This document shows, piece after piece, positions 2,634 through 30,925 of a stretch of 34,864 bases of DNA. How positions within the stretch are numbered: position 1 is the first letter of the stretch; every line of letters begins with the position of its first letter. The notes beneath the pieces were generated by a model that made no database searches, was not told the origin of the DNA, and saw only the letters and a list, made by a program, of their open reading frames with translations. The DNA is taken from the IMG/VR virus record IMGVR_UViG_3300003322_000611, positions 1 through 34,864 of that record; one strand, 5' to 3'. A program made the position numbers and the translations under genes. Source of the DNA: a virus.

Positions 2634-4181
2634 TTATTGAATGTTGTCTAAAACCAGTGTAAGATCCTCCACGGCGCCAGCCACGGAACGATCGAAAGCG
2701 GCAAAAGCCTGCTGTAACTTATTATCGGAAATTTCTGGCTTTTTACCCATGGCGGCGGCAAAATTGCGCAACCACTCATTTAACCGGTCTCGATCTGAAA
2801 GGGCAGCCTGTCGGGCGGTTTCGGCTTCCTGGTCTTTGCGCTGCTTGATCTGGTCCTGCATTTTCAAACCGTTTTCCAGCTCCAACACAAGACCCGCCAC
2901 TTCCATGGCCCAGGGTTCCGCGTCAAAGTTTTCCAGTTGGCTTTTGGTTACAAAAAGCGGCGCAATGTCGGTATAGTTAAAAAGCCTTTTAAATGAGCCG
3001 TCCGCTTGTTCCTTCATGCCAAAGTGCGCGAATAATTCGGCTTTCCGGTTTACTATCATGTTGCGGCGCTCTTCTGCCTCTTTGCGGTCCTTTTCAGCCT
3101 GTTCCAGCCGTTTTAATTCAGCCCGTTCCTTTTCCTGGTCTTTGGCCTGTTGGGCGCCTTTCAGCTTTTTAACCTCTTCCGTAACGTTATTTAATTCGGT
3201 TTCCCAGTCCTGGCCTTCCAGGGTTTCCACTTTTGCCCGGTGAATAATAAAGTTGCCACAATCCAGGGTTTTGAACTCCCACACATGCGTGCCAAAGTTG
3301 TAGAACATGCCCAGCGCTTCCAGGTGGTAGGCCCTGGCCTTTGTCCTAGCTTCCATGGCTTCCTTCTTTTGGCGGTCGATCGCTGCCTGCTGCTCTTCCA
3401 TCTCCCTTTTTTGAGCGTCCAGCTTTTTCTGCATCTCTTCCTGTTCTTTGCGTTGGGCTTCCAGGCGGTCGGCCTCTTCTTTTTTCTTTCGTTCCTCTTC
3501 CGCTTTGGCGGATACAATAGTGGCGTTTTCCTGCGCTACCCGCGCCAGGAATGTGGCATAATCTTCGTCGGTCATGGTTTTAAGGGTAACCACGTCCATG
3601 CTTATAGTCGCCCCAATGGCGTAATAGTTGCCATTAAAGGCCATTCCGTTGTCCAGCAATTCAGCCACACGCCCCTGCAGGCGCGCCTGGGCTTCCCGTT
3701 CAGCCTTTTGCTTTATAGCCTCTTTTTCGGCTTCTATGCGGTCCAGCTCTTCCTTTAGCGGGGTTTCAACCTCTTCCAAAAGTTCGGTTAAATCGCGCTT
3801 TTCCTTATCAATAGCCTGGGTAATTTCCAGATAATCGGCTTTAATAACCTTATGTTTTTTATCCACTTCCAGGCGCTTGTTGCGTACTTCCTGCCATGCC
3901 TCTTTTACCTTTTTTTGGCCTTCCTTGTCGTCCACGCCGGCAATAGTAAGGCCCTTATACAATTCCTTTTTTTCAGCAATCCAGGCACGGCCCACGTCAA
4001 AGCGCGCCACTTCCTGGGCGGCTTTTTCTTTTGTTGTTAATTGGGCCGGTGGCTGCATAATGACCGGGGGTGGTAATTGGGGTATTTCTTCAATCGGCAG
4101 ATCAGTAGTTTTGTTGCCTTCAATAAGCTGGGCGCTGGGTTTTTTTGCGCCTTTTTTTGCTGTTGTTGTAGCTTTTGCCAT
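2634..4181 (-). CDS. Coiled-coil protein with three copies of a small domain
   Basis: 515 residues. Residues 85-165 and 220-280 are long charged coiled coils, as is 345-375. Between them I see three related segments at about 171-216, 283-334 and 379-433, each with the pattern R...L...GM, an aromatic strand, an Ile, then L.....W/Y...L..V. The N-terminal 50 residues are Lys/Ala/Pro-rich and probably flexible. Coiled-coil proteins of DUF1351-like type sit near recombinases in other phages; similarity here is suggestive only. Its own promoter (TATATTTG at 4207-4214) with a pair of operator palindromes shows it is a regulated early gene, first of the leftmost operon. Function unknown; a DNA-processing scaffold is a guess. 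Confidence 0.8.
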   Translation of the reverse strand: MAKATTTAKKGAKKPSAQLIEGNKTTDLPIEEIPQLPPPVIMQPPAQLTTKEKAAQEVARFDVGRAWIAEKKELYKGLTIAGVDDKEGQKKVKEAWQEVRNKRLEVDKKHKVIKADYLEITQAIDKEKRDLTELLEEVETPLKEELDRIEAEKEAIKQKAEREAQARLQGRVAELLDNGMAFNGNYYAIGATISMDVVTLKTMTDEDYATFLARVAQENATIVSAKAEEERKKKEEADRLEAQRKEQEEMQKKLDAQKREMEEQQAAIDRQKKEAMEARTKARAYHLEALGMFYNFGTHVWEFKTLDCGNFIIHRAKVETLEGQDWETELNNVTEEVKKLKGAQQAKDQEKERAELKRLEQAEKDRKEAEERRNMIVNRKAELFAHFGMKEQADGSFKRLFNYTDIAPLFVTKSQLENFDAEPWAMEVAGLVLELENGLKMQDQIKQRKDQEAETARQAALSDRDRLNEWLRNFAAAMGKKPEISDNKLQQAFAAFDRSVAGAVEDLTLVLDNIQ

Positions 4182-4206: not shown

Positions 4207-4214
4207 CAAATATA
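4207..4214 (-). promoter_or_regulatory. Bacteroidota-type promoter -7 box
   Basis: TATATTTG matches TAnnTTTG. It lies 26 nt from the ATG at 4181, the same distance as at the promoters of the genes starting at 14511, 13065 and 9009. Two operator-like palindromes lie immediately upstream. Confidence 0.65.
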
Positions 4215-4221
4215 TCAAAAT

Positions 4222-4245
4222 AGAAACATTCCCGAAATTATTTCG
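4222..4245 (-). promoter_or_regulatory. Tandem operator pair, 11-bp offset
   Basis: Plus-strand sites AGAAA-CAT-TCCCG (4222-4234, imperfect) and CGAAA-TTA-TTTCG (4233-4245, perfect palindrome) overlap by two bases and are offset by 11 bp, one DNA turn. They lie in the region expected to contain the -33 element of the promoter at 4207-4214. Same family as the sites near 9041, 13121 and 14546. Confidence 0.6.
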
Positions 4246-4255
4246 GCCTTATTTT

Positions 4256-4651
4256 TTAAACTATTTCGACATTTATTTTATGTATTGCCAACATTAAGGC
4301 TTTTTTAAGGCGGAAAACCGCCAGGCCTTCTGTGGCTTCGCTCTTTACATCTTTCACCCGAAAAGTGCCATCCGGGTAGTATAAAACAAAATCGGCCTCA
4401 TATGTACAGATCAAAACCCCGTTAACGATTAACGGAAACGATACATGGCATTCGATTTTAGTAATTTCACCGGCTTTTTTAAGCATTTTGCAGCGGCCGT
4501 AATACTGGCTTTCCTTTTTGCTGTCGAACTTGATACCGTCCACAACCGTGGGCGTGTTGTTGTATTTTAGGCGGGGCGCGGTATTTTTTTTACGCTGTTC
4601 CTGTTGGTAGTAGGCCTGATATTGCTCAGGCGTCCAGCTTTCCTGTTTCAT
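4256..4651 (-). CDS. DUF1064-like PD-(D/E)XK nuclease-fold protein
   Basis: 131 residues from the ATG at 4651. The DUF1064 pattern is visible: FDSKKE with the conserved Glu near residue 50, YEADFVLYYPDG (Asp near 91) and VKDVKS (D-x-K near 104-106), then a Leu/Lys-rich helix. E...D...DxK is the PD-(D/E)XK nuclease arrangement. The family is common in phage replication regions. A longer frame upstream to 4705 exists but adds an unlikely N-terminus inside the previous gene. Overlaps the preceding gene by 26 nt. A structure-specific or junction nuclease role is inferred from fold and place, not shown. Confidence 0.8.
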   Translation of the reverse strand: MKQESWTPEQYQAYYQQEQRKKNTAPRLKYNNTPTVVDGIKFDSKKESQYYGRCKMLKKAGEITKIECHVSFPLIVNGVLICTYEADFVLYYPDGTFRVKDVKSEATEGLAVFRLKKALMLAIHKINVEIV

Positions 4652-5345
4652 TGTTTTTAAATTTTTGTCGTAAGTCGGACCCAATACCAGAAATTGCACC
4701 GGCAACGCTGGTTAGTTTATAATCCAGGTCGTTACCGGCTGCCCGATCTTCTGGCGTGTTATACACCTGTTTTGTTGCAATGTGGGGCGCCTGCACTTCC
4801 TGGCGCTCAATTTCCTGTTCCTGCATGGCTATCTTCGTATCCCGCCGTTCGGCATAATAGGCGTCGGCCATTTCCGTAATGGTGGTCAGGTCAATACGTT
4901 CGTAAACTTTTACCAGTTTACCCCTTTTTGCAAGGGCAAACATCATTGCATAATCTTCAAGGCGAAAATTTCCCGCCTCTTCCATCAGCATGGCGGCAGC
5001 TTCAAGGATCTGATCCTCGTTCATATTCCTAGCCACGTTAATACTGGCGCAATAATCCCGGACCATTACGGCAATAAGCAGCAATACAACCGGCTGCCCG
5101 TTATCTTTTATGAGGTCCCTAATTTGCGGGTAACGAACGACGCCCAGGTAATCCGGTTTCCCCTCAGGAAATAACTGTTTTACCGCCATACCGTACGCCA
5201 GCTTTGCCACCTGGCGCTCTTCCGGCGTTTGTTTATCATTGCCCAGCGCCACCATACACTGCCGCAATTGTGTGTGCAAGGCTGGCGGTTGATACGTTGC
5301 CACCTGTTGGCCCACTGTTTCCGGTTTGCTTTTTTGAATGCCCAT
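4626..5345 (-). CDS. Replication-region protein, possible helicase-loading accessory
   Basis: 239 residues, mostly helical. A conserved-looking core near 120-165 includes FRLEDYAMMFALAKRGK and a Tyr-rich helix, a pattern I associate with proteins encoded beside replication initiators in Bacteroidota mobile elements. No Walker motif is present, so it is not an AAA+ loader. Start at 5345 gives a 110-nt overlap with the initiator; an internal Met at 5255 would cut this to 20 nt, but the N-terminal residues look like genuine protein. Helicase loading is inference from position only. Confidence 0.65.
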   Translation of the reverse strand: MGIQKSKPETVGQQVATYQPPALHTQLRQCMVALGNDKQTPEERQVAKLAYGMAVKQLFPEGKPDYLGVVRYPQIRDLIKDNGQPVVLLLIAVMVRDYCASINVARNMNEDQILEAAAMLMEEAGNFRLEDYAMMFALAKRGKLVKVYERIDLTTITEMADAYYAERRDTKIAMQEQEIERQEVQAPHIATKQVYNTPEDRAAGNDLDYKLTSVAGAISGIGSDLRQKFKNNETGKLDA

Positions 5346-6201
5346 TTTTTAACTGGGTTATGATATTTTGAATATTCGAATTTATGTCTATCAGCCTGGT
5401 TTTAGTCTGTAAAAACCCGTCCAGGCGGTGCCAATTATTTAGCACATATTGCCACGCCTCATGCGCTTTATCTTCCACAGCCTGGTCGCCTGGGTGGGTC
5501 AGTCCATCTTTTGAAATTCTATCTAAAGCAATTTTTTTAAAATAAGCTACAAGGCTGTTAGTAGCCGCGCCGCTGGCTTTGCCATAAGGCGGGGGCGCTC
5601 CGGTTAAATTTTTAAAAAACGCGTCGTATGTGGCTGTAAATCGCTGGAAAATGCCCAATTGTTTGGGTTCGTCGTCGCCGGCCTGTTTTTTAGGTTTCTT
5701 CTTTGGCTGTTCAACCGGTGGCGGATCTTCTGCTGGGGGCCCTGTTATATCGTTAGATATAACAGGAATAGTTTCTTTAAGAGTACTTTTTTCAATAGTA
5801 CTTTGTAGTACCCCGGTTTTCCGTTCCCGCCTTTTCAGGTGTGGATTTTTCGGCGTCGGTATTTTCGAAAGCGAATTTTCCGCATCCGAAAAATCCGCAT
5901 GTTTGCTGGGGTCGTCACAAACAAAGTAGTTGATTTCCGGCAATTTTCCACGTCCTGACCCGTTTGACTTTACACAGATTATAAATTTTTTTTCTTCCAA
6001 TTCCTGCCATGCCCGGTTAATGGCATCCCGGCCTTCAGGTAATTTTTGATATATCCAATTTTTGTGTAAAACCCAATCCCGGGGCAAGCTCATAATAAAG
6101 CAAAGCAACCCCATTGCGCGGGCGGAAAGGTCAGATTTAAAAATAACATTACTTAGCAGCGTGTAGTCCCGATCTGGGTAAGTCCTATTGATACGGTTCA
6201 T
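5236..6201 (-). CDS. Replication initiator / replisome organiser with N-terminal winged helix
   Basis: 321 residues from the ATG at 6201. Residues about 10-75 match the winged-helix domain of phage and plasmid initiators: a Y...LSNVIF strand, LSARAMGLLCF helix, LPRDW, and a recognition helix around GRDAINRAWQELEEKKF. A Pro/Lys-rich linker (about 140-185) leads to a C-terminal helical domain, the usual DnaD/DnaB-loader layout. An in-frame upstream ATG at 6270 would add 23 residues, but that segment forms the arm of a long inverted repeat and is not typical of the family; its 21-nt distance to the -7 box keeps it possible. Followed by a probable partner gene with a long overlap. Confidence 0.8.
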   Translation of the reverse strand: MNRINRTYPDRDYTLLSNVIFKSDLSARAMGLLCFIMSLPRDWVLHKNWIYQKLPEGRDAINRAWQELEEKKFIICVKSNGSGRGKLPEINYFVCDDPSKHADFSDAENSLSKIPTPKNPHLKRRERKTGVLQSTIEKSTLKETIPVISNDITGPPAEDPPPVEQPKKKPKKQAGDDEPKQLGIFQRFTATYDAFFKNLTGAPPPYGKASGAATNSLVAYFKKIALDRISKDGLTHPGDQAVEDKAHEAWQYVLNNWHRLDGFLQTKTRLIDINSNIQNIITQLKNGHSKKQTGNSGPTGGNVSTASLAHTIAAVYGGAGQ

Positions 6202-6219
6202 AAGGGAATAGAAAAGAAA

Positions 6220-6325
6220 AACCGCTTTGAAAAAGGCCGTGCGGGGCCGTAATCCAAAACGGTAAATCATTACATTTTATAAAGTCAACGCAAATATAAC
6301 GCCCGCACGGGTCATAAAAGCGGTT
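6220..6325 (-). other. Long nested inverted repeat upstream of the initiator (origin or leader RNA)
   Basis: Two perfect 9-bp arm pairs are nested: 6220-6228 with 6317-6325 and 6237-6245 with 6302-6310, separated by an 8/6-nt internal loop. The 56-bp AT-rich centre carries TATATTTG (6291-6298) and a small 5-bp stem. On the minus strand the outer arm runs straight into a TTTTTCTTTTC tract just before the ATG at 6201. It could be an attenuator or terminator for read-through RNA, or a cruciform-forming replication origin. Confidence 0.6.
6291..6298 (-). promoter_or_regulatory. Promoter -7 box for the initiator operon
   Basis: TATATTTG on the minus strand fits TAnnTTTG. No clear -33 TTG is seen at the usual spacing. 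It sits inside the loop of the long inverted repeat 6220-6325. Confidence 0.5.
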
Positions 6326-6356
6326 ATAGGAAAAAGAAAGTAAATATAAGGGGAAA

Positions 6357-7382
6357 TTATTTCGTTTTGTTCAAAAACCTACGCACACCGTTGGAGTCCC
6401 CCTTCCATGATACGTAGCCGTTGGCGCCAAAGTCCAGACGGTCAGCGCCTTCCTGGCCCAAAACATTTTTTAACGTGTTTTCGTGTAGCTGTTTGGTTTC
6501 TTCAACCTCTTTTATCCGGTCTTTGGCTTCTCGGTGTGCAACGGCATGGGCCAGTTGTTCGGGCGTGCCTGGGCGTTCGCCTGGTAATGCTATTTTATAC
6601 TTTTCCTTTAAGTACGCATTGAAAGCGTCGGATCCATCCGGCTCAGGTTCCAGGCTTTGCAGCGCTGCGGTAAGTTCATCCACGGCGGCCCGGTTAAAAT
6701 TCCGGTCGGCCTCGAAACGCTGGGTTATGATCTTTCGGCCCTCTTCCACCTTATCCCAAAACTTTTTAGTAACGTCCAGGATGCTGTCAAAAATTACCGT
6801 GTTGGGCTCGAACGGCAAAACGAAAAATTCCCGGTTGTCCTTTAAAATCCCGCTTTCGCCGTACTCAAATTCACAAACCCCGATCTGCGTTTGTACCTGC
6901 ACCACATACCCAGGCGGAAAACCGGCCTCCCATTTATCGGCCTCATAACCGCCGATCGTTTTTAATTCCAGGGCACCGTTGCCACGGCCTTCAAACTGGT
7001 TAATTTCCCGGTCCAGCGATACGAATAACCAGGGATATTTTGGATTGTGCGCGTAGGCGTTCACGCGCTTACACCGGCGTATTTTTCGGCCGGCCCGGTA
7101 GTTCACTATCATTTGTTCATGGCCGGGGTTTTTAGGGTCCCAGTGTTCCCATAACGTGGCTAAAAAAGGTTCCTGTTCTTTACCCAGGAACTGGCTAATG
7201 TTTTCCACGTTAAATCCCAGGTCTTCCCCGATCTTTTCGTAAAAGAGCTGTATACTGGCTTTGTACGGGCTTAAACCCATAACGACGGCCACCTCACTGG
7301 CGCCGATACCTTGTTTACGATAACGCAACCAGTCCTCCTGGCTCATGTTAAGAGTGGGTACCAAACGAATGCTTGATTTCAT
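6357..7382 (-). CDS. YqaJ-type viral recombinase exonuclease
   Basis: 341 residues. N-terminal WLRYRKQGIGASEVAVVMG is the signature opening of the YqaJ / lambda exonuclease-like family. Catalytic PD-(D/E)XK residues follow: LGKEQEP (E69/E71), SLDREI (D124), ALELK (E139, K141) and QVQTQI (Q162-Q166). The C-terminal third is a charged helical tail. It would degrade one strand of double-stranded ends to make 3' single strands for the annealing protein encoded just upstream (7822-8703), as in Red-type recombination. The 439-nt gap before it holds a promoter and structured RNA candidates. Assignment by motif is strong. Confidence 0.9.
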   Translation of the reverse strand: MKSSIRLVPTLNMSQEDWLRYRKQGIGASEVAVVMGLSPYKASIQLFYEKIGEDLGFNVENISQFLGKEQEPFLATLWEHWDPKNPGHEQMIVNYRAGRKIRRCKRVNAYAHNPKYPWLFVSLDREINQFEGRGNGALELKTIGGYEADKWEAGFPPGYVVQVQTQIGVCEFEYGESGILKDNREFFVLPFEPNTVIFDSILDVTKKFWDKVEEGRKIITQRFEADRNFNRAAVDELTAALQSLEPEPDGSDAFNAYLKEKYKIALPGERPGTPEQLAHAVAHREAKDRIKEVEETKQLHENTLKNVLGQEGADRLDFGANGYVSWKGDSNGVRRFLNKTK

Positions 7383-7447
7383 GTAATGATTTTAAAAAGG
7401 TGAAAAATAAAAAATTGGTTGGTACTTCGCGCGAGAATCTAAGTTAT

Positions 7448-7544
7448 AAAAAAGGGCTGCAATCTTCGCCGCGGTCCGTTCGTGGGTTATGCAACTTGCA
7501 GGAATGCCCAAATATAAAACGGTTCGGTTACTATCATGCAGCCC
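7448..7544 (-). ncRNA. Candidate structured RNA B / attenuator before the exonuclease gene
   Basis: Nested stems: 8 bp (7454-7461 with 7537-7544, GGGCTGCA / TGCAGCCC), then a symmetric 14/14 internal loop, 5 bp (7476-7480 with 7518-7522), 4 bp (7483-7486 with 7507-7510) and 3 bp (7490-7492 with 7498-7500). The minus-strand 3' side is followed by T6 (7448-7453). It looks like a terminator for transcripts entering from the annealase gene. A tRNA was considered and rejected because there is no T arm. Confidence 0.4.
7509..7516 (-). promoter_or_regulatory. Promoter -7 box for the exonuclease gene, with TSS-proximal palindrome
   Basis: TATATTTG matches TAnnTTTG; no -33 TTG is evident. A perfect 11-bp palindrome TGCAA-G-TTGCA (7490-7500) begins about where transcription would start, an operator-like position. 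The leader to the ATG at 7382 would be about 120 nt, much longer than at the other early promoters. Confidence 0.45.
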
Positions 7545-7650
7545 GTAAAAAAATAAAAAGGGCGCCAACATTCTGTTATTCAGTTTCCGGTTATTGAGTG
7601 CTTTAAAAGCTATCCACAAAGCCGGTACGTTTGGCAGGGGAACGCCCTTT
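7545..7650 (-). ncRNA. Candidate structured RNA A upstream of structure B
   Basis: An 8-bp pair (7643-7650 with 7557-7564, AAAGGGCG / CGCCCTTT) encloses shorter nested pairs GCCAA/TTGGC, CCGG/CCGG and GCTTT/AAAGC. On the minus strand it ends in a TTTTTATTTTTTT tract. Size (about 94 nt) and layout resemble structure B directly downstream. No ORF of convincing coding character covers it. Structure is by eye only. Confidence 0.35.
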
Positions 7651-7651
7651 G

Positions 7652-7675
7652 AAAACCCGGCCCTTTTACGGCCGG
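7652..7675 (-). terminator. Weak terminator-like hairpin after the annealase gene
   Basis: CCGGCC / GGCCGG (7657-7662 with 7670-7675) with a 7-nt loop, followed on the minus strand by GTTTTC. Stem is strong but the U tract is short. Confidence 0.4.
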
Positions 7676-7821
7676 CTGTCCGGGTATATGACCAGGGCCG
7701 TATCTTCCTGGTCCTTCACCGGAGGTAACCTTTGAACAGGCACCGGATGTTGACCATTGCCCGCCTGTTCGTGGCGTGTCCCGGCCTTTACGGTAGGCCA
7801 TCGGGTTACCAGCCAATTTAT

Positions 7822-8703
7822 TTATGTCGGCATTTCATCGGCTTGCTTGCCGTTTGCCTTTTCCTGAGCTTTTTTTATAGCGTCTTCTGTGGCTGTAGTT
7901 GCTTTGTCTGCCTTTTCCTTTGGCGTTTTTTTGTCCGGGAATAATTCGGCCACTGTGCCTTCCTGGTTCTTAATCAATGTACACATACCACGCAATACCG
8001 AAAGTTTTTCCAGGTCAATATCTTCAATAGCTTTTAATCCCAACGCCCTGCAAATTTGATCGTCTTTTACTCCCAGGCTATGCAGATAATCTAGCGCTTT
8101 TTTACGCCTGGTTGGCAGCGTTTCTGCTGTCCCTTTTGCCACTTCCTTAACCTTTTCGTAAATATCTGCAACCAACGCGCTGGGCACTACTTTAAAAACG
8201 GCGTTTCTGAAAGCAATGGCGCAGGCTGCGTTACCGGTAACCACCTGCATGTCTTCGGTCATTGTTTGCATTCTGCCGGTCTTTTTACCGCCTTCATATA
8301 CGTTTTGCAAAATGGAGCGTTTTACTTCCAGCGTTATACATGTGTTTGTTTCCAGATCATGGCAAATACCTTGCGCGGTAATCGTCTTACCGTCGTTGTG
8401 AATTACACGCATACCTGCTCGTATATTACCATAAGAGCCGACCACAATTTCGGCCAGGCGAACGCTGGGCCCTTCTAGGGTTTTGTTCCCGCGCGGGAGC
8501 GCGTACGCGCATGACTGGGCAACGTCTTCGTTAATGGTCGCTATGCTCATGGTTCGGTCCATGAATGCCTTTATTGATCGGGGAAACGCTTTTGCCGTCG
8601 CAATTTGCGTATCAATCTCAGCCTTTAAAACAAGACTGAGCGCCGCCTCGTCTTTCAAAACTTCCACGCTATCCACCTGGCTAACATTTTCGTTTTGGTC
8701 CAT
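7822..8703 (-). CDS. Putative single-strand annealing recombinase
   Basis: 293 residues. Central features include SIATINEDVAQSCAYALPRG, a GPSVRLAEIV helix and a strand pattern ending in a Met-Gln-rich segment, then SALVADIYEKVKEVAKG and a C-terminal LGVKDDQICRALGLK helix pair followed by a Lys-rich tail. I place it with RecT/Rad52-type annealing proteins because of this helical C-terminal pattern and because it is the gene before a YqaJ exonuclease, the classic pairing. Identity to a named family is not certain. It is coupled to the HTH gene (27-nt gap). The reading frame stays open for 50 codons after its stop, to 7666. Confidence 0.6.
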   Translation of the reverse strand: MDQNENVSQVDSVEVLKDEAALSLVLKAEIDTQIATAKAFPRSIKAFMDRTMSIATINEDVAQSCAYALPRGNKTLEGPSVRLAEIVVGSYGNIRAGMRVIHNDGKTITAQGICHDLETNTCITLEVKRSILQNVYEGGKKTGRMQTMTEDMQVVTGNAACAIAFRNAVFKVVPSALVADIYEKVKEVAKGTAETLPTRRKKALDYLHSLGVKDDQICRALGLKAIEDIDLEKLSVLRGMCTLIKNQEGTVAELFPDKKTPKEKADKATTATEDAIKKAQEKANGKQADEMPT

Positions 8704-8730
8704 AAATGGGAATTGTAAAAGGGTTAAAAA

Positions 8731-9009
8731 TTACTTTTTCTTAGCCTCTACCTGGTCGGCCATGGCTATAAGTTCGTCCGCTTGCTTTTCTTCTTCCTTC
8801 AATCGCTCCATGAAAAAAGCGTTGATCTTATCGGGCAGCTCAGGGAGTGACACATAGCCATAAATCAACGCCTTATCAATTACCGGGCGGCTATAACCCA
8901 GTTTTTCGGCCATTAGTTCGGGGTCTCCTTTGCGGCGTAACTTCTGCCAGGCGTCGTGTAGTTTTTGCGATACTGTGCGCGTCCATTCGCGTTTGCTGGT
9001 TCTTGCCAT
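8731..9009 (-). CDS. Helix-turn-helix DNA-binding regulator
   Basis: 92 residues from the ATG at 9009; an upstream ATG at 9048 lies within the promoter and is rejected. Residues 29-52 (DPELMAEKLGYS then RPVIDKALIYGYV) form a plausible helix-turn-helix: helix, Gly turn, recognition helix starting at S40. The C-terminal 30 residues are a charged helix suited to dimerisation. Its own promoter has operator-like palindromes of the type seen at three other early promoters, so self-regulation and control of the early regulon are reasonable inferences. Whether it represses or activates is not visible. First gene of the unit with the annealase. Confidence 0.65.
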   Translation of the reverse strand: MARTSKREWTRTVSQKLHDAWQKLRRKGDPELMAEKLGYSRPVIDKALIYGYVSLPELPDKINAFFMERLKEEEKQADELIAMADQVEAKKK

Positions 9010-9035
9010 TGGGTTTAAATTCTTTGTTATTGCTC

Positions 9036-9064
9036 CAAAATTAAACATTTCCGAAACAAAACAA
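9036..9064 (-). promoter_or_regulatory. Promoter of the HTH regulator and annealase unit
   Basis: -7 box TAATTTTG (9043 to 9036), 18-bp spacer, -33 TTG (9064 to 9062). The ATG at 9009 is 27 nt downstream of the -7 box. Operator-like sites overlap the spacer and lie just upstream. Confidence 0.65.
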
Positions 9065-9097
9065 AAACATTTTTATTGCCATATAGAAACTATTTCG
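9041..9097 (-). promoter_or_regulatory. Operator-like palindromes at the regulator promoter
   Basis: Plus-strand AGAAA-CTA-TTTCG (9085-9097, one base from the consensus) and a degenerate TTAAA-CAT-TTCCG (9041-9053) whose starts are 44 bp apart, four helical turns. The degenerate site overlaps the -7 box. Confidence 0.5.
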
Positions 9098-9140
9098 GCG
9101 TTTGTAAAAACATCCTAATTTTTCAAAAATTATGAACCAA

Positions 9141-9177
9141 TAAAAAAGCCTGGGCCACCATTGTAGCGCCAGGCTTT
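9141..9177 (-). terminator. Intrinsic terminator of the SSB operon
   Basis: Perfect 9-bp stem AAAGCCTGG / CCAGGCTTT (9169-9177 with 9145-9153) and a 15-nt loop, with a T-rich tract at the minus-strand 3' side. It follows the stop at 9209 and precedes the promoter at 9043. Confidence 0.75.
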
Positions 9178-9208
9178 CAGTTATGCCAATTTGTACCCTG
9201 TAAATATA

Positions 9209-9529
9209 CTAAAATTCACTATCCAGAAACCCGTTTAAAAAAGCCTGGCAGCATACCTCCGACGCCTGCTTGCTATTTACTGTTAAACAGTTAAGCGCCT
9301 TGTTTAGCCTTTCAATACCAACAAGGGGACCGGCAACCGAACCCAGGCCAATATTCATACTACATTCGGCCTTTGTTGGCGGGTCGGTGTCCAATACTTC
9401 AAAAGACGCGACGCCGCAAAATTTGACCGGTCCGGCTTTTACAATGATGTGGTACGCGTTGGGCTCGTTTTCGTGGCGCTTCAGGAAATTAAATATAAGA
9501 TCAGGGCCAACGTATAAAATGCGCTCCAT
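9209..9529 (-). CDS. Phage protein of unknown function, Cys-containing
   Basis: 106 residues, mixed alpha/beta, with Cys at four places including a CC pair near residue 93. No recognised domain. Last gene of the operon that starts near 13065; its ATG at 9529 overlaps the stop of the preceding gene by one base, indicating coupling. A terminator follows at 9141-9177. Confidence 0.65.
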   Translation of the reverse strand: MERILYVGPDLIFNFLKRHENEPNAYHIIVKAGPVKFCGVASFEVLDTDPPTKAECSMNIGLGSVAGPLVGIERLNKALNCLTVNSKQASEVCCQAFLNGFLDSEF

Positions 9530-10002
9530 TACCGAAAGTTTAGTTTTTCAAAACCGCCTTCCCGGACCAATTGGAGGCCCTGTTGGCTTTCCTCACAAAG
9601 GGCAATCAGTTCGCGCGTGTTAGCCAGTTGCGCCTCCAGATCCTGCAAACGCTTCGCCCTGGCCTTGCTCAGTTCGTCCAGGATAACCGCCGCGATCTGG
9701 TTCTGGTCCTTCGCGTGAAAACTGTGCAAGGTTGGCAAAAGGTTTTGCAAAAACTCTTCCGGTGTGGGCTGGCGGGTGTTCCTGGTCATGCCTTCCGCAA
9801 TGGCCTTGCCGTCTTCAACGCCGCGGTCGTACGCCTTTTCTTCCCGGCGTTCCATTGTGTTATTGAGGTCGTCTGGCCACCGGCCGTCCGTCCCAATAAC
9901 ATATACCTTTTCGCCTGGCGTTAATAATAAATATTCTTTACCTGCTGGAATGGTTACCTGGCGCGCGCGTTTACGGGCCTCGTTTGTTTGTCCTTTTTCC
10001 AT
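9529..10002 (-). CDS. Phage protein of unknown function with C-terminal coiled coil
   Basis: 157 residues. The N-terminal 45 residues look like a small beta domain (IPAGKEYLLLTPGEKVYVIG), followed by a charged linker and, from about residue 115, a clear coiled coil rich in Leu, Ala, Arg and Glu. No enzymatic motif. Co-transcribed with the SSB gene upstream and coupled to the 106-codon gene downstream. Confidence 0.65.
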   Translation of the reverse strand: MEKGQTNEARKRARQVTIPAGKEYLLLTPGEKVYVIGTDGRWPDDLNNTMERREEKAYDRGVEDGKAIAEGMTRNTRQPTPEEFLQNLLPTLHSFHAKDQNQIAAVILDELSKARAKRLQDLEAQLANTRELIALCEESQQGLQLVREGGFEKLNFR

Positions 10003-10040
10003 TGTAATAGTTGGCCGTATTGAACCGACGGCGGCGGGTT

Positions 10041-10178
10041 TTAACGGTTTGCTTTCCTGCTTTGTTTTTGGAGCCTGGCGCGGCTTTGGCGCCGTTTAAA
10101 CCACTTTTTACCAAAGTGTAATGTATAATACCCGGTTTGCCCTTTTTCGGTGGGCGCGTGAAAAATCAATTGTTTCAT
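10041..10178 (-). CDS. Very small basic protein (45 codons)
   Basis: ATG at 10178, stop at 10041. The product begins MKQLIFHAPTEKGQTGYY and ends in a run of Arg, Lys and Gln. It starts 2 nt after the stop of the 77-codon gene and fills a gap otherwise empty, the same tight packing as its neighbours. Strong positive charge suggests nucleic-acid binding. No family recognised. Confidence 0.5.
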   Translation of the reverse strand: MKQLIFHAPTEKGQTGYYTLHFGKKWFKRRQSRARLQKQSRKANR

Positions 10179-10180
10179 AA

Positions 10181-10414
10181 TTACCAATTTTTAATATTAA
10201 AAAGTTTCATGTAATCCCTGCGTAAGGTTAGATAAATGTCAACGTAATATGTGTTTTTTTGGTAGGTAAGCAGCGGCCTGGCGTATCGTTCAATAAAATC
10301 CTCAACCGCCTGGTTGCGGCTGTCCAGGCTCCACATGGCCGCAATTTCAGCCCGGTACATGTATACAAATTCGTGCCTTTCGGCCCGCCGTTCTTTTGTG
10401 CTGCGGTGTCTCAT
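10181..10414 (-). CDS. Small phage protein, unknown function
   Basis: 77 residues, Arg- and Tyr-rich (N-terminus MRHRSTKERRAERHEF, C-terminus TLRRDYMKLFNIKNW), probably all helical. Follows the SSB gene by 2 nt. No recognised domain; charge would allow DNA or RNA contact. Confidence 0.6.
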   Translation of the reverse strand: MRHRSTKERRAERHEFVYMYRAEIAAMWSLDSRNQAVEDFIERYARPLLTYQKNTYYVDIYLTLRRDYMKLFNIKNW

Positions 10415-10416
10415 GT

Positions 10417-10836
10417 TTAAAAAGGAAGATCATCGTCGCCGGCGCCTTCAATCGGCGGCGGTTGTTTCCATTGGTCCTGGTTCCCTTGCGCGGGTGCCTG
10501 GTTTTGTGGTGGTATTCCACCGGTTTGCTGGCGCGTGCTGGGTGCCGGCTTTGCGCCTCCAACCTTTATAATATTCCAGCATTTCAGGGTGTTTATAATG
10601 CCATCTTTGCCTTGCTTGCTTTTGAACTTTTTACCCCTTACATCCACTTTACATTCCACTATGTCGCCCCGTAAAAAGTTGTCCAGCATGTTGGCGTCGC
10701 CCTGGTGGAACTCAATTTGGTAATGGTTCGGGTACTGTACATCTTTTTCTAGTACCCAGGCAACGCGCTTTTCAAAGTTGCCGAAAATTTCAGCGGGGAA
10801 AATGTCGGTTAATTCCCCTTTGATTATTATTTGCAT
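10417..10836 (-). CDS. ssb: DUF3127-type single-stranded DNA-binding protein
   Basis: 139 residues. The first 90 form an OB-fold-like beta domain as in DUF3127 proteins (MQIIIKGELTDIFPAE, then KRVAWVLE and GDIVECKVDVRGKKF). A Gln/Pro/Gly-rich linker leads to the acidic tip DDDLPF, the hallmark of SSB C-termini that recruit partner proteins. DUF3127 is the SSB-like form found in Bacteroidota and their phages. It would coat single strands in replication and in exonuclease/annealase recombination. Overlaps the upstream gene by 10 nt. Confidence 0.85.
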   Translation of the reverse strand: MQIIIKGELTDIFPAEIFGNFEKRVAWVLEKDVQYPNHYQIEFHQGDANMLDNFLRGDIVECKVDVRGKKFKSKQGKDGIINTLKCWNIIKVGGAKPAPSTRQQTGGIPPQNQAPAQGNQDQWKQPPPIEGAGDDDLPF

Positions 10837-11195
10837 TCTGTACGTTTTGGAAGGTTATTTAAAAACATGTGTATGTGTTCGCCGGTCACTTCTGCGCGCT
10901 GGGCAATTTCCCCAACCAGATCATGCAGGACGTTCACAGTGTCGGCAGTTGGTAACTTCTTAAATATTTCATCAAAAGCGTTTGCCTTCACCTGGGTAAT
11001 GCTGACCGTCCACATAATGTCGTCGGGTCCCAGGTGTAACGGCACTTTGACCGGGCAAACAACCACATTACCCACAACACTGGCCAGCACACGCACGGTT
11101 TCCGCCTTTGTTTCGTGCTTATCCTGCAACCAGATAAAGAACGCCAGCCAGCTATCAAGTCCCAAATATTTGCCGATTTCGTATTTAGTAATCAT
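10827..11195 (-). CDS. Phage protein of unknown function
   Basis: 122 residues, mixed alpha/beta. N-terminus MITKYEIGKYLGLDSW, C-terminal helix with HIHMFLNNLPKR. No motif recognised. Overlaps the SSB gene by 10 nt and shares one base with the preceding gene, so it is embedded in the same translationally coupled chain. Confidence 0.6.
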   Translation of the reverse strand: MITKYEIGKYLGLDSWLAFFIWLQDKHETKAETVRVLASVVGNVVVCPVKVPLHLGPDDIMWTVSITQVKANAFDEIFKKLPTADTVNVLHDLVGEIAQRAEVTGEHIHMFLNNLPKRTECK

Positions 11196-11470
11196 TACTC
11201 CGATAATTTTGTTCCTTCGGCTACTTCTTCCAGCCTGTAGTTGTCGCCAAAAATCATACGTTCCCGGCCGTTATAAACTTCCCTCAAATTAATAAGGGCG
11301 TCGCCGTATTTATCCAAAACGGTTAAAATGTCGGCGCCTGGCTCAATGGTAACCTCGAACATTTTGCAAAACGTTTCGAATGTTGGTCTTTCGGTCCATA
11401 AGGCAACCAGGTTGTTACGGGGTTGGTCGTAATTGTTGGCGACCGAAAACAGGCAGTATATTTTTTTCAT
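11195..11470 (-). CDS. Small phage protein, unknown function
   Basis: 91 residues; begins MKKIYCLFSVANNYDQP and contains an alternating hydrophobic pattern typical of a small alpha/beta fold. No recognised family. Start lies 2 nt after the previous stop; the stop overlaps the next ATG. Confidence 0.6.
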   Translation of the reverse strand: MKKIYCLFSVANNYDQPRNNLVALWTERPTFETFCKMFEVTIEPGADILTVLDKYGDALINLREVYNGRERMIFGDNYRLEEVAEGTKLSE

Positions 11471-11472
11471 GG

Positions 11473-11829
11473 TTAAAAAATGTTAAGTAGTTCCGCAATG
11501 GTTTTATTAATCGCTGTCAGGTATTCCAGGCCCTCATCGCTGGGCCTATCCATGTAATGCCTTGCCGCTTCCTGGCGGCGTAATAGGTACGGGATAAGTG
11601 AGCCAAAGAGTTGCAGGCCGTCGCCGTGGGCTATTATTTCAGCCTGTCGCGCCCGGTCGTCTAATTGGGTGGCTGTCATGGCGCCGGGTTCAGGAATGGC
11701 TTTTAATGCCGTATCACGCAATAAGGATGCGGCTTTTTTTGCAGCGTCTTCATAAGCATTTGAAACATTGGCGATCCTTATAATACCATAAATAACATGG
11801 TAAGCCTCATTTACTTCTCCCTTTGTCAT
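11473..11829 (-). CDS. All-helical phage protein, unknown function
   Basis: 118 residues, predicted almost fully helical (AYHVIYGIIRIANVSNAYED, then Arg/Glu-rich helices). No catalytic motif. Sits 5 nt after the lipoprotein gene and 2 nt before the 91-codon gene. Confidence 0.6.
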   Translation of the reverse strand: MTKGEVNEAYHVIYGIIRIANVSNAYEDAAKKAASLLRDTALKAIPEPGAMTATQLDDRARQAEIIAHGDGLQLFGSLIPYLLRRQEAARHYMDRPSDEGLEYLTAINKTIAELLNIF

Positions 11830-11834
11830 TGCTT

Positions 11835-12251
11835 TTATTTTAGGTCAAAAAATATGCAATCAGTAGTGCCAGACGGCACCACAATGGCCACCTGCTTGTT
11901 TGCCATCGGGTTGTCTTTATCCAGATAATCAACATTGTAATTGCCTGGCTTCAATTGCACCATACCAAACCACGCGGAGCTGCAGGCCGGCTGGCTGGCA
12001 CTGTATGTTATACGCCCGTAATCGGTGCCGGACACCTTCGCCGTAATCACTTTGTAGCTGGTTACGGCATTGGTGGAATAAAACCGCACATTCACCTTCG
12101 CGGGCGCGGGCGGCGTTGGGTTATCAACTGACTTTTTGCAGCTTACGATCGCCAGGAAGGCGACAAAAATCAAAATTCGTTTCCAGTACCGGAAACAAAT
12201 ACACTGTCTAACTGGGTACCCACAACGGGCACAACGTCCGTAATTTTTCAT
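11835..12251 (-). CDS. Phage lipoprotein with N-terminal Cys cluster
   Basis: 138 residues from the ATG at 12251, whose ATGA overlaps the stop of a hidden 33-codon ORF; this coupling decides the start. The first 19 residues hold CxxC and CxC (RCARCGYPVRQCIC), zinc-ribbon-like. Then come Lys/Arg, a hydrophobic segment (ILIFVAFLAIVSC) ending in a lipobox, and CKKS as in Bacteroidota lipoproteins. The mature part (about 95 residues) is beta-rich, with two further Cys. It should be anchored in a membrane after lipidation. Phage lipoproteins often block superinfection; that role is inference. A Cys cluster ahead of a signal peptide is unusual. Confidence 0.65.
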   Translation of the reverse strand: MKNYGRCARCGYPVRQCICFRYWKRILIFVAFLAIVSCKKSVDNPTPPAPAKVNVRFYSTNAVTSYKVITAKVSGTDYGRITYSASQPACSSAWFGMVQLKPGNYNVDYLDKDNPMANKQVAIVVPSGTTDCIFFDLK

Positions 12252-12349
12252 TTTAGTTTTTTTGGCTGGCGGCAGATCCATAGGTGGCCAATAACGCGGG
12301 CACCGATCAGGATGCAGGCCGCCAGGGTGTTTAATAAAAAAAATCTCAT
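12248..12349 (-). CDS. Hidden 33-codon membrane peptide
   Basis: ATG at 12349, TGA at 12248 overlapping the lipoprotein ATG. The product MRFFLLNTLAACILIGARVI continues to a basic end (RQPKKLK): one hydrophobic segment plus positive tail, a single-span membrane peptide. It starts 18 nt after the preceding stop. The overlap and its composition support translation; short length keeps confidence moderate. Confidence 0.5.
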   Translation of the reverse strand: MRFFLLNTLAACILIGARVIGHLWICRQPKKLK

Positions 12350-12367
12350 GGGGCTGGTTGGTTGGGT

Positions 12368-12619
12368 TTAGTAAGGTAAACGGGTCCAAAATAGCATTTC
12401 CCCCGCTTCGTACGGGTCAAACCGGCTATTGCGCCAAATACTGGCATACTGCCACGGGTGGCGGTTCCTTTTGGTATGCCGATACATAAATAAAAGTAAC
12501 TTTTCCAGGTTGTTGCCGTTCAATTCGAACTTATCCGGCCGGCCCTCTTTTTTATACTCGTCTTTAAGTATCAGTAAAACCTGGTATTTGGGTTTTCGCT
12601 TCTCTTTGGAAGTACCCAT
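12368..12619 (-). CDS. Small basic phage protein, unknown function
   Basis: 83 residues with a Lys/Arg-rich N-terminus (MGTSKEKRKPKYQV), then a helix-rich body with several Trp and Arg residues. No domain recognised. Starts 2 nt after the stop of the 56-codon ORF at 12622. Confidence 0.6.
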   Translation of the reverse strand: MGTSKEKRKPKYQVLLILKDEYKKEGRPDKFELNGNNLEKLLLFMYRHTKRNRHPWQYASIWRNSRFDPYEAGEMLFWTRLPY

Positions 12620-12621
12620 AA

Positions 12622-12792
12622 TTATATGCTTTGGGGTTTACGTTTTGCCGCAATGGCGGCCGCCATGCGGTTCTGATTGTGCCAGAATTTAAGCTCTTCG
12701 GCAATCTCTTTTTTCTCCCGTTTGGTCGGTGCGGTAATGTATTCGATAAACAAGCGGGTAGTGCGGCGTTGGTTTCGTTCTATCTGTGTCAT
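12622..12792 (-). CDS. Small basic protein (56 codons)
   Basis: ATG at 12792, stop at 12622. Product begins MTQIERNQRRTTRLFIEYIT and is helical, ending RKPQSI. Packed 2 nt before the next gene. It lies directly after two strong hairpins and a T6 tract, so its expression may depend on read-through of that terminator-like element. Confidence 0.6.
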   Translation of the reverse strand: MTQIERNQRRTTRLFIEYITAPTKREKKEIAEELKFWHNQNRMAAAIAAKRKPQSI

Positions 12793-12811
12793 TGTTTGGA
12801 GAATTGAAGGT

Positions 12812-12875
12812 TAAAAAATGGGCCCCGAGGTCACCACAGGGCCCGCCCGCTGGAACTTTGCGGGAAACCAGCGGG
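12812..12875 (-). terminator. Double hairpin with U tract (attenuator-like)
   Basis: First stem CCCGCTGG / CCAGCGGG (12868-12875 with 12846-12853); second hairpin 12820-12844 with GGGCCC arms and an inner GGT/ACC; then T6 at 12813-12818. It follows the 62-codon gene, but the next ATG is only 21 nt beyond the U tract with no room for a new promoter, so partial termination is likely. Confidence 0.6.
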
Positions 12876-12876
12876 G

Positions 12877-13065
12877 TTATTTTTGTTCCGCCTTTATAGC
12901 GTCACGCTTGCGCTTTAAGGCGTCCCAATTCGTTTGTATATTCTCATATTGCAAATAGTCGTCGGCCGTCATATTGTTGGTGTCAAAATTATACTTGTGG
13001 TTAAGCTCCTGTAAACGGGCTTCCAGGGTGTGCATTTCGGCGGTAATCTGTTGTAATTCGGTCAT
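12877..13065 (-). CDS. Small coiled-coil protein led by a regulated promoter
   Basis: 62 residues from the ATG at 13065, which sits 30 nt from a TATATTTG box; longer upstream frames run through the promoter and are rejected. Product is a coiled coil (MTELQQITAEMHTLEARLQE) with a Lys/Arg-rich end (KRKRDAIKAEQK). First gene after an operator-controlled promoter and followed at once by a double hairpin, so it may be made in larger amounts than the genes after it. Function unknown. Confidence 0.7.
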   Translation of the reverse strand: MTELQQITAEMHTLEARLQELNHKYNFDTNNMTADDYLQYENIQTNWDALKRKRDAIKAEQK

Positions 13066-13094
13066 GTTGCAAAGTTTTTTCGTTATTCGATACA

Positions 13095-13102
13095 CAAATA
13101 TA
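13095..13102 (-). promoter_or_regulatory. Promoter -7 box of the SSB operon
   Basis: TATATTTG fits TAnnTTTG, 30 nt before the ATG at 13065. The -33 zone is occupied by an operator palindrome and has no clean TTG. The leader shares the strings ATTTGTGTATC and AAAAACTTTGCAA with the promoter at 14539. Confidence 0.6.
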
Positions 13103-13120
13103 ATCCCTTTTATCAAAAAC

Positions 13121-13144
13121 CGAAACATTTTCGAAATTATTTTT
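13121..13144 (-). promoter_or_regulatory. Tandem operator pair, 11-bp offset
   Basis: CGAAA-CAT-TTTCG (13121-13133, perfect) and CGAAA-TTA-TTTTT (13132-13144, left half intact) overlap by two bases with an 11-bp offset, the same arrangement as at 4222-4245. Confidence 0.6.
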
Positions 13145-13162
13145 ATAGCCAGGGCGAAACAT

Positions 13163-13192
13163 AACAGAAAAGCCCCGGGACGAAACCTGGGC
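13163..13192 (-). terminator. Terminator after the methyltransferase gene
   Basis: GCCCAGG / CC-GGGC stem with a small internal mismatch (13172-13192), followed by TTTTCTGTT on the minus strand. Lies between the methyltransferase stop (13221) and the promoter at 13102. Confidence 0.55.
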
Positions 13193-13220
13193 CGATCATT
13201 AAACCGTACCAATTAATATT

Positions 13221-13907
13221 TTAAGGGTTCGCATCAAAAAACGCTTTGGCAAAACCTGCCGGCGTGTTGCTGCGTAATGTCTTTGTTTTTTCGCTTTTAC
13301 CGCCCGTTTTAGCCATGATCTCAGACGTTTTGTAAATACGCCCATTGGTTGACTGGGCCACCGTTATGGGCTCCACAGGGCGCCTGGTTAAGTTCGTATT
13401 GAACTGCCCCCAAAGAATTGTTTTTTTGGTGTAGGGGTCGCCATAATCACAAGGGTTAAAACTCATTGCCCGGTACTTCGCCGCGTGCGGTACCAACTTT
13501 TCCAGGCGCCCTGGCGGGTTCTCCATAACCCAAAATTTCCATGGGAAAAGGTCGCGGAAGATCAGCACCACATCAACCAGGGCGGCCGCGTAATCGCTCA
13601 GGGTCCAATCCGGCCCGTATGGCTCAGGCGCCGGGGTTGTGTCCTTCATTGGCCAGTACTGCGCGCCTGCGCTGGAAATATCTGTACAGGGCGGCGCCGC
13701 AATAAGGCCCCACGGTATATAGCCGTTTTCCTGGGCCTCTTCAATATCCATCTGCAACCGGTTAAGCATGGTTAAAATACAACCCTCTTTTTTGTAGTCC
13801 CATAAAAGCGTAGGGTAACCGGCTTTAATGTAGGGCCTGGGCCACCTGCCGCTGTAGTCGTATATACTAACTATTAACCTTTGTTCCGGGTACAATGGAA
13901 GTTTCAC
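13221..13907 (-). CDS. Compact C5-cytosine DNA methyltransferase-like protein
   Basis: 228 residues. Motif I-like region near 14-36 (SIYDYSGRWPRPYIKAGY then LLWD), motif IV APPCTDISS with the catalytic Cys at 74, motif VI ENPPG (E129-G133), a CDYGDPYTKKTILWG stretch (153-167) typical of phage cytosine methyltransferases, and a C-terminal RSNTPAGFAKAFF (212-224) in place of motif X. It lacks a long target-recognition domain, and PPC is followed by T where Q is usual. It probably methylates phage DNA at the C5 of cytosine, perhaps against host restriction. The start overlaps the 83-codon gene by 41 nt. Confidence 0.75.
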   Translation of the reverse strand: MKLPLYPEQRLIVSIYDYSGRWPRPYIKAGYPTLLWDYKKEGCILTMLNRLQMDIEEAQENGYIPWGLIAAPPCTDISSAGAQYWPMKDTTPAPEPYGPDWTLSDYAAALVDVVLIFRDLFPWKFWVMENPPGRLEKLVPHAAKYRAMSFNPCDYGDPYTKKTILWGQFNTNLTRRPVEPITVAQSTNGRIYKTSEIMAKTGGKSEKTKTLRSNTPAGFAKAFFDANP

Positions 13908-14118
13908 GTGCTAAAAATTTAGGAAGATCAAAAAACCCAACGGCCTGAAACGTCGCCGCTGGGCTGCCGGCGAACTGCTGCAAAATCTCATTTAAAAACT
14001 GCTTAATATTTTCGGGCGTTGGGTCCAATTGCTTTATGGTAATGCCCAGCAACTTTTTGGGGTCAATGGTCAATTTCAGGATTTTAAAGGCCTGTTTTTC
14101 TGCTTTAGATAGTGGCAT
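13867..14118 (-). CDS. Small phage protein, unknown function
   Basis: 83 residues, Lys-rich N-terminus (MPLSKAEKQAFKILKL), then helices with several Gln and Phe. No known domain. Overlaps the methyltransferase start by 41 nt, so the two may be translated together. A terminator-like hairpin lies just before its ATG. Confidence 0.6.
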   Translation of the reverse strand: MPLSKAEKQAFKILKLTIDPKKLLGITIKQLDPTPENIKQFLNEILQQFAGSPAATFQAVGFFDLPKFLARETSIVPGTKVNS

Positions 14119-14137
14119 TGAAATAAGATTGAGGTTT

Positions 14138-14165
14138 AAAAATGGCCGGGGCGTAACTCCCGGCC
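14138..14165 (-). terminator. Hairpin with U tract between early genes
   Basis: GGCCGGG / CCCGGCC 7-bp stem (14159-14165 with 14144-14150), then ATTTTTAAACC. It ends only 20 nt before the ATG at 14118, so it acts as an attenuator at most. Confidence 0.55.
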
Positions 14166-14175
14166 GGCTCCCGTT

Positions 14176-14511
14176 TTAAAGTGTCTGCCCGTACGCGTCG
14201 GGGTACTCTTCAAAAAAACCACCTGTTAAGCTGCCGTAATAACTGCTATGCTGAATAAAAACCTTCTTTATTGAAATGACTTTAATCGGCTGTTCAATGG
14301 CCTTTTTCTGGCGCTCTTCCACTTCCTGGGTGGCAGCGGCAAGCAGGGTTTCGTCGTATGTCATGAACTTAAAGCCCTGGGCTTCCATTGCTTCAAACGC
14401 GGCGTTATCCATTGCGTGACGTGAAACCGCTACATATTCGTTGTTTTTAGTAAAAAACACGTCGCCGGTACCGTTTTTAAAAGCCTCATTTACTGTTTTA
14501 TACGTTGTCAT
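14176..14511 (-). CDS. First early gene, unknown function
   Basis: 111 residues from the ATG at 14511, 28 nt from a TAAATTTG box; frames starting at 14610 run through the promoter and terminator and are rejected. Product begins MTTYKTVNEAFKNGTGDVFF and contains a beta-alpha pattern with YVAVSRHAMDNAAFEAMEAQ; Tyr/Phe-rich end. No family recognised. First gene downstream of the lysis terminator with a strong operator-controlled promoter, so a candidate immediate-early protein. Confidence 0.7.
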   Translation of the reverse strand: MTTYKTVNEAFKNGTGDVFFTKNNEYVAVSRHAMDNAAFEAMEAQGFKFMTYDETLLAAATQEVEERQKKAIEQPIKVISIKKVFIQHSSYYGSLTGGFFEEYPDAYGQTL

Positions 14512-14538
14512 TTTGCAAAGTTTTTGTTTTGTGATACA

Positions 14539-14569
14539 CAAATTTAGAAACATTTTCGAAACGAAACAA
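14539..14569 (-). promoter_or_regulatory. Early promoter with -33 and -7 elements
   Basis: -33 TTG (14569 to 14567), 20-bp spacer, -7 TAAATTTG (14546 to 14539). This is the best match to the Bacteroidota consensus in the window and is the first promoter after the late terminator. Confidence 0.7.
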
Positions 14570-14592
14570 GTGTTTTGCCCGAAATATTTTCG
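14546..14592 (-). promoter_or_regulatory. Operator palindromes at the first early promoter
   Basis: AGAAA-CAT-TTTCG (14546-14558) abuts the -7 box, a CGAAA half-site follows at 14557 (11-bp offset), and CGAAA-TAT-TTTCG (14580-14592, perfect) lies upstream of -33, 34 bp from the first site. Confidence 0.6.
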
Positions 14593-24000: not shown

Positions 24001-24124
24001 CCAACTTTCCGCCAACCTCCCGGTTCCATTCTATTGTAAAATTACTTTCGCCCAGGGGCTGCACTTGCAGCACTCCCAGGCGGTTAGTAACTACGTATCG
24101 AAATTTATTAGTTACGGTCTTCAT
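21077..24124 (-). CDS. Large tail tip/hub candidate with three cadherin/Ig-like (tandem-95) repeats
   Basis: 1015 residues. Residues 1-600 form a Cys- and Trp-containing structural region without a motif I can name; place after the tape measure gene suggests a tail tip or hub. Three repeats of about 96 residues begin near 605, 701 and 798, each with the pattern APVAxxD...LxxD....GTVxxxxxGxxxYTPxxGYxGxDxFxYxIxD, the tandem-95 / cadherin-like Ig fold known from adhesins. About 125 C-terminal residues follow. Coupled to the tape measure gene by ATGA (24121-24124). Repeats likely mediate surface contact or extend the tip. Confidence 0.75.
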   Translation of the reverse strand: MKTVTNKFRYVVTNRLGVLQVQPLGESNFTIEWNREVGGKLDYKNELPSKIVFTGSAYQNLLKLERSIYRCDFVNITVERWCGSAWVPWFSGRMSNNDGTWDLDRCQLEIKLDDIKQQQCFDENKGTELNLLQNIGIRRTVLINPTNITIEKVTYSTSGSGSDTDPACMNNSQWGGSGTPDSQGWVVYNQHFIKSYIGGGVYDCNTSTSWAREVTTVACGFPSPGPDWILVEDTCPGGNQKYARAARLFNCVFTVPNYGSGYEETDWTCSIIGDTTTNVAIDNGVPLADVINMFVNSFCPGKTFVSNFFQINPDIVSTINYVTGQRSKTRFITLFQKSDVKRPTVTGNAAKALISWEKLFEALINMFNLRWRVVGNIIRMEHVSYFSKNQGFDLTQPRWAPYMVGKRKYNYQNEDIPAREEFKYMEAGFGDFQGAPITYSGGCVAQSSRDAIKTYAVDKVTTDVELCLSNPQPDSKVVSDDGFVFVAADYDGTNYFIISEPSILGGASLNNSLAWAQLHRDYHKWDRPLSVGVMNYQTTTFFSTKPTKKGEKITIPLCCGDAFNPDDIITTALGQGTVDKATFSFKNETLEVDLLYPADQGLTQNAAPVAVNDTVITNQDIALFINVLGNDYDPDAGATLSFPTIVLAPMHGTAVVQLNGTVLYTPATGYTGDDYFLYNIKDDWSQVSNNALVAITVRPPNTAPVANNDSYIASKNITLNISAPGVFANDSDDVAFTLDTYDTASAQGGTVTVNADGSFSYTPPTGYVGIDTFTYTIIDTPGLTDTATVTIDVRDPNNPVANDDGIYVTRRNQSLSIGAPGVLSNDTTGVGTLTAAAGTIATANGGSVAMASDGSFTYFPPSGFTGIDTFVYTANNGSGSDTATVTIRVLPDVYVKLQQVNVNNGFIYGECSQGPEYLGESNTAIYRLFFYANSAGTIPLDVSGLGLFVNYRITRGHLSGSPTSSDYTQAVNGTQFDLFGGSNYEFYHNETDCFGTQVIYWSDTITTQPGLYTII

Positions 24125-30910: not shown

Positions 30911-30925
30911 TTTCGAAAAGTTTTC

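Follow-up and report, generated by a model that had tools for sequence, protein, structure and literature searches.

The 34,864-nucleotide viral sequence IMGVR_UViG_3300003322_000611 (hereafter the window) comprises a whole IMG/VR record, hence no wider genome was available for scanning, and is probably a fragment of a phage genome. Four of its promoters each carry two to three tandem copies of an 11-bp direct repeat, approximately GTTTCGGAAAT when read in the direction of transcription. One of the four precedes the gene of a predicted 92-residue helix-turn-helix (HTH) protein (8731..9009, minus strand), our candidate regulator. These repeats probably form a self-controlled switch for part of the phage genes, and on the sequence data we favor, with moderate confidence, an autoregulated HTH repressor acting on the tandem repeats at four operons. 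The window promoters adopt the Bacteroidota form TAnnTTTG, of which 21 boxes are present; the published consensus is TTTG/TAnnTTTG (PMC6847099).

The arrays, their -7 boxes and the genes behind them all lie on the minus strand, which carries the window genes, whereas the upstream palindromes are given without strand. Array A consists of two 11-bp units, ATTTCGGGAAT and GTTTCTATTTT (4217..4238), upstream of the -7 box TATATTTG (4207..4214), with an imperfect palindrome TTAAACTATTTCG further upstream (4256..4268). The first gene of operon A encodes a 515-residue coiled-coil-like protein (2634..4181). Array B, at the HTH gene, has three units, GTTTTTGTTTT, GTTTCGGAAAT and GTTTAATTTTG (9036..9068), and spans the -33 region into the -7 box TAATTTTG (9036..9043); a palindrome AGAAACTATTTCG lies upstream (9085..9097). 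Array C has two units, ATTTCGAAAAT and GTTTCGGTTTT (13116..13137), and a -7 box TATATTTG (13095..13102), followed by a 62-residue open reading frame (ORF) (12877..13065). The two units of array D, GTTTCGAAAAT and GTTTCTAAATT (14541..14562), extend into the -7 box TAAATTTG (14539..14546), with a palindrome CGAAATATTTTCG upstream (14580..14592); the first gene of operon D encodes a 111-residue protein (14176..14511).

Relatives were found through the 293-residue protein (phrog_3657; 7822..8703, minus strand) encoded directly downstream of the HTH gene. Two loci, L019 and L020, the latter part of the 47,348-base record G001, encode HTH orthologues of 76 and 74% identity, respectively. The 21-nt core of array B, TTTCGGAAATGTTTAATTTTG, is identical in both loci ahead of the HTH orthologue, and the upstream palindrome of promoter B was not found in the relatives. 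G001 carries arrays at the HTH gene, the homologue of the window 111-residue protein gene, the coiled-coil gene and one more operon. Array A has counterparts in G001 (L020:14798-14822) and in L060, which also has a site similar to the imperfect palindrome of promoter A, and the counterpart of array D in L020 has three units and likewise lies at the homologous gene (promoter box L020:6142). The four window sites were used on their own to derive a matrix, which placed the four G001 promoters, three of them at homologous genes, among the best matches in about 47 kb; one coding-region match in G001 scored 18.5, close to the best chance matches in simulated sequence. In the window itself, the four best matches were all promoters, and the equal frequency inside genes that the initial annotation had named as refuting did not occur.

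An alignment of the 293-residue protein added 14 more distant loci, three with an HTH homologue, and an alignment of the RecE-like exonuclease added three further HTH-bearing loci. Record G003 (L047) has three-unit arrays of the GTTTAAAATAA type at three genes, among them the HTH and coiled-coil genes, and G016 (L065) has GTTTCAAAAAA-type arrays before eight genes, including the HTH and coiled-coil genes. The repeat is thus found at the HTH and coiled-coil promoters in three lineages with differing sequences, namely GTTTCGG, GTTTAAA and GTTTCAAAAAA. Nothing argues more strongly for a functional array, read by a phage protein, than this occurrence of three repeat sequences at one regulon core. 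Moreover, the exact three-unit pattern GTTTN7GTTTN7GTTT occurs only in HTH-bearing records (G000, G001, G002, G003 and G016), each time at the HTH promoter, and was absent from about 459 kb of twelve relatives without a detected HTH homologue. The proposal that the four promoters form one regulon is strongly supported by conservation in related phages, and the exact three-unit arrays at the HTH promoter in five records support autoregulation of the HTH gene. Pattern scans of viral contigs for the core gave mostly chance matches, the sole informative one being in the G001 record (L050).

Some relatives carry further arrays. In the 50-kb phage G016, the eight 11-bp arrays (L071, L072, L073, L074) indicate a wider regulon than in the window, and one array-bearing gene resembles window 33539-34177, on the structural side. 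In G003, the array at 31866-31902 (L054) is oriented opposite to the surrounding genes.

The initial annotation had taken a 13-bp palindrome as the basic unit. Its five sites are real: the exact pattern MGAAANNNTTTCG gives eight strand matches in the window, corresponding to 4233, 9085, 13121, 14546 and 14580 and no others, compared to a mean of 0.29 and a maximum of 4 strand matches in 100 dinucleotide shuffles. The weaker copies AGAAACATTCCCG at 4222, TTAAACATTTCCG at 9041 and CGAAATTATTTTT at 13132 were also recovered as described. With two mismatches allowed, no enrichment was seen in the window (25 matches against 25.2 expected), so the signal is confined to the exact palindrome. This lack of enrichment is what chance matches in AT-rich intergenic DNA would produce; however, with five exact sites against 0.3 expected, and with position and sequence conserved in relatives, an origin by chance is scarcely credible. 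From the restriction to TAnnTTTG boxes the initial annotation had excepted a single near match, at 30914, whereas near matches lie away from the four promoters at three places: 6352, where the end of the exonuclease gene is overlapped, 7999, within a gene, and 30914, which was dropped as it is not conserved in G001.

As a unit, however, the palindrome gives way to the direct repeat. A repeat search of the window aligned 4210, 9029 and 14534 as one family, a hint that the shared element is longer than the palindrome. The units, of the approximate form GTTTC-N6, follow one another in the same orientation, as in GTTTTTGTTTT-GTTTCGGAAAT-GTTTAATTTTG at the HTH promoter. The palindrome arises where one unit ends and the next begins; sites 4222 and 4233 are both overlapped by array A. 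Across genomes the GTTT unit start is kept, which is partly circular because units were selected by GTTT, whereas only 0.22-0.36 of the units (A-rich G016 excluded) have the dyad partner AAA, a low figure free of that circularity. The shared core does not include the palindromes at 9085 and 14580, which are found about 40-50 bp upstream of the -7 box, whereas the supposedly weaker copies at 4222 and 9041 are members of the element conserved across phages.

Arrays are attached to a minority of promoters. Two or more tandem units accompany 4 of 21 TAnnTTTG boxes in the window, 4 of 22 in G001, 4 of 43 in G016 and 1 of 50 in G003, compared to 1 of 114 in the HTH-less relatives. Shuffling of the upstream DNA yielded on average 0.15-0.20 array boxes per HTH-bearing genome (0.18 for the window), and the excess is significant for the window, G001 and G016 (p at most 0.0033). 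For G003 alone it was not significant in this test of TAnnTTTG boxes, because two of its arrays lack an exact box. These counts bear on the idea that the repeats are merely core promoter sequence, i.e., AT-rich periodic elements of one promoter class with no phage regulator bound. Such motifs, phased with the -7 box at -18 and -28, are indeed general in F. johnsoniae promoters (PMC6847099), but the low shares of array-bearing boxes in the window and in the HTH-less relatives, together with a specific, GC-containing GTTTCGG unit conserved at the same genes, make this explanation very improbable.

The arrays stand in constant helical phase to the TAnnTTTG box. Unit starts fall at phases 1-5 of an 11-bp turn relative to the -7 box at all 15 promoters of HTH-bearing lineages, and the helical phasing is supported by a Rayleigh p of about 0.002 (eleven promoters, three lineages). 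Within the window, the unit offsets differ from promoter to promoter (13/24, 3/14/25, 24/35 and 5/16). The A/T part of the units coincides with the -18 and -28 AT-rich motif positions of Flavobacterium promoters, so that the phasing would be explained by an operator superimposed on the promoter. The -33 region and the spacer are covered by the arrays, and the array of the HTH gene also reaches over the -7 box; this is a typical repressor position, which favors repression. In addition, several units at the -33 position retain a TTTG-like sequence, as though a working host promoter had to be kept.

The same layout could also suit an activator. Lambda CII is a 97-residue HTH regulator that binds the direct repeats TTGC-N6-TTGC around the -35 box, a site that the GTTTC-N6-GTTTC layout resembles. 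By analogy, the HTH protein might bind the arrays and bring RNA polymerase to middle promoters whose -33 elements are weak, its own promoter being separately controlled. The helical phasing of all arrays is consistent with this, as are the four non-HTH arrays of G016, whose offsets from the -7 box are about 24, 35 and 46 and which are centred near -41. However, an activator dependent on contact rarely tolerates offsets that vary among promoters of one genome, the units cover the spacer and even the -7 box, and the phasing is otherwise explicable by the AT-rich motifs (PMC6847099). We thus consider activation unlikely, and repression by the HTH protein preferable.

The ORF of the HTH gene ends at 8731 and starts with an ATG at 9009, as initially annotated. 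Its product was modeled with three helices, comprising a canonical HTH pair (residues 29-37 and 41-50) and a 35-residue C-terminal helix (residues 57-91); this model, from eight sequences, has a mean pLDDT of 79.5, compared to 67 for the first model. No family match was found in Pfam, PHROGs or NCBIfam, PADLOC gave no match, and comparison with annotated phages gave none either. The HTH profile retrieved from bacterial genomes only weak matches within long actinobacterial ORFs, which were judged unrelated, and matches to Protein A and ferritin in a profile search of solved structures were dismissed as helical artefacts. Among the array-bearing phages, the HTH protein is the only small predicted DNA-binding protein found in common.

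Several observations weigh against the HTH protein as a repressor bound to these arrays. Fold searches listed DNA-binding domains including lambda repressor, HipB and CII, none of them significant. The coiled-coil gene, too, is missing from the relatives that have no HTH gene, which makes them an imperfect control. HTH-bearing G004 and G005 have no exact three-unit array; nor do G015 and G017, although one looser array lies close to the HTH gene of G015. In G005, a different and looser motif is common to three promoters. Most arrays of G016 occupy -33 and positions beyond it on the upstream side, from which an activator might act as well. Finally, the recognition helix of G003, SRPVIDRALNYGYV, is nearly the same as that of the window, SRPVIDKALIYGYV, though the repeat differs at several of its 11 positions. 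That the helix changes less than the repeat between lineages would fit a host transcription factor or another phage protein as the array binder, the HTH gene being just one regulated gene. Nevertheless, the repeat sequence varies between phage lineages, and G000, G001 and G003 yielded no HTH_3 domain, so we regard a different binder as quite improbable.

Differing motifs were noted at other loci as well. At L037, three promoter regions (1118, 2773 and 7196), those of the HTH and coiled-coil genes included, share a TGGAAA-N-TT motif. At L066, in a phage whose HTH homologue has diverged, the motif TTTTCGNTTTTGTTTT is common to two promoter-like regions (7500-7546 and 11031-11077) and possibly represents another operator lineage.

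Based on these data, we propose that the predicted HTH protein binds the 11-bp direct repeats over four promoters, its own included. Several protomers would line up along one face of the double helix, joined by the long C-terminal helix, and would bar the host RNA polymerase from the -33/-7 region. That polymerase would use the array-bearing promoters soon after entry, and build-up of the HTH protein would then shut down its own operon and the three others. The proposed regulon is narrower than the control of the early genes as a whole that had been suggested at first. The promoters at 6298, 7516 and 20205 have boxes and no array, as initially noted; since those at 7516 and 6298 belong to the RecE-like exonuclease and the putative replication initiator, respectively, the regulon would be a subset of the presumed early genes, "early" being judged from gene content only.

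Such a working mode would resemble that of small autoregulatory HTH repressors on direct repeats, such as ArdK and P2 C, with membership in none of the families tested. ArdK of plasmid R388 (KorA family), a 102-residue HTH repressor, acts at five promoters of early-entry genes via direct repeats beside the -35 box (PMC9723621). Its site is a two-copy TTGACA repeat, in contrast to the two to four 11-bp units over a Bacteroidota promoter seen here; with no KorA or ArdK match in the profile search of solved structures, membership in this family was rejected. The P2 C repressor has 99 residues and binds direct repeats flanking the -10 region, but its two 8-bp repeats lie 22 bp apart and serve a lysis-lysogeny switch (PMC4752584). 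Aca repressors are phage HTH proteins that autorepress a strong promoter via sites within the core promoter (PMC9410906). Their sites are inverted repeats at acr-aca promoters, whereas here direct repeats occur at four to eight promoters with no known anti-CRISPR gene linked; given these direct repeats and the lack of Pfam, NCBIfam or PADLOC matches, Aca membership was also rejected. Lambda CII differs in being an activator of lysogeny with two repeats, and the fold match of the window protein to it is not significant (E 7.6-8.6). A Bacteroidetes LexA regulon was excluded too, because the LexA boxes are GGA-N5-TCC or CTAA-N5-TTAG (PMC8565304), whereas the window sites CGAAA-N3-TTTCG correspond to GAA-N5-TTC.

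The window encodes phage functions including an endolysin, a tape measure protein, a DNA methyltransferase (13221-13907; phrog_757, 88% identity to the G001 copy), a single-strand binding protein, the RecE-like exonuclease and the putative replication initiator. A 1015-residue tail-region protein (21077-24124) has internally repeated stretches (repeat D7) and looks Ig-like or cadherin-like. Transfer RNA and Rfam scans of the window found nothing. The window and four relatives (five records) yielded no integrase domain, and the lysis-lysogeny switch is thus not indicated. G001 appears to be a near-complete genome: its large genes lie on one strand, and by inspection the genes at its two ends adjoin each other in the window. 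Together with the missing integrase domain, this makes a virulent life style more likely than a temperate one. No divergent switch was seen in G001, and the window genes lie on one strand; in the absence of both integrase and divergent switch, a lysis-lysogeny immunity repressor of the CI or P2 C type was rejected. Both conclusions carry the reservation that the window is probably incomplete.

HTH proteins seldom recognize direct repeats (PMC9723621). Recognition of long tandem arrays would be more unusual again, and an operator of three or more phased repeats is a rare topology for such proteins. Altogether, the compared sequences give good support to a proposed new form of a long-known mode of viral gene control. 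More tentatively, and short of an even chance in our view, it may represent a new HTH regulator family of Bacteroidota phages, which assembles head to tail on three or more helically phased repeats, with a repeat that has diverged in each lineage and a controlled gene set that is partly constant. To our knowledge, gene regulation in Bacteroidota phages has been little studied. If the proposal is true, a compact regulator whose operator code can be read at four to eight promoters in each phage would offer a model, open to test, of how genes are shut off on schedule without lysogeny, and possibly a means of controlling expression in Bacteroidota hosts.
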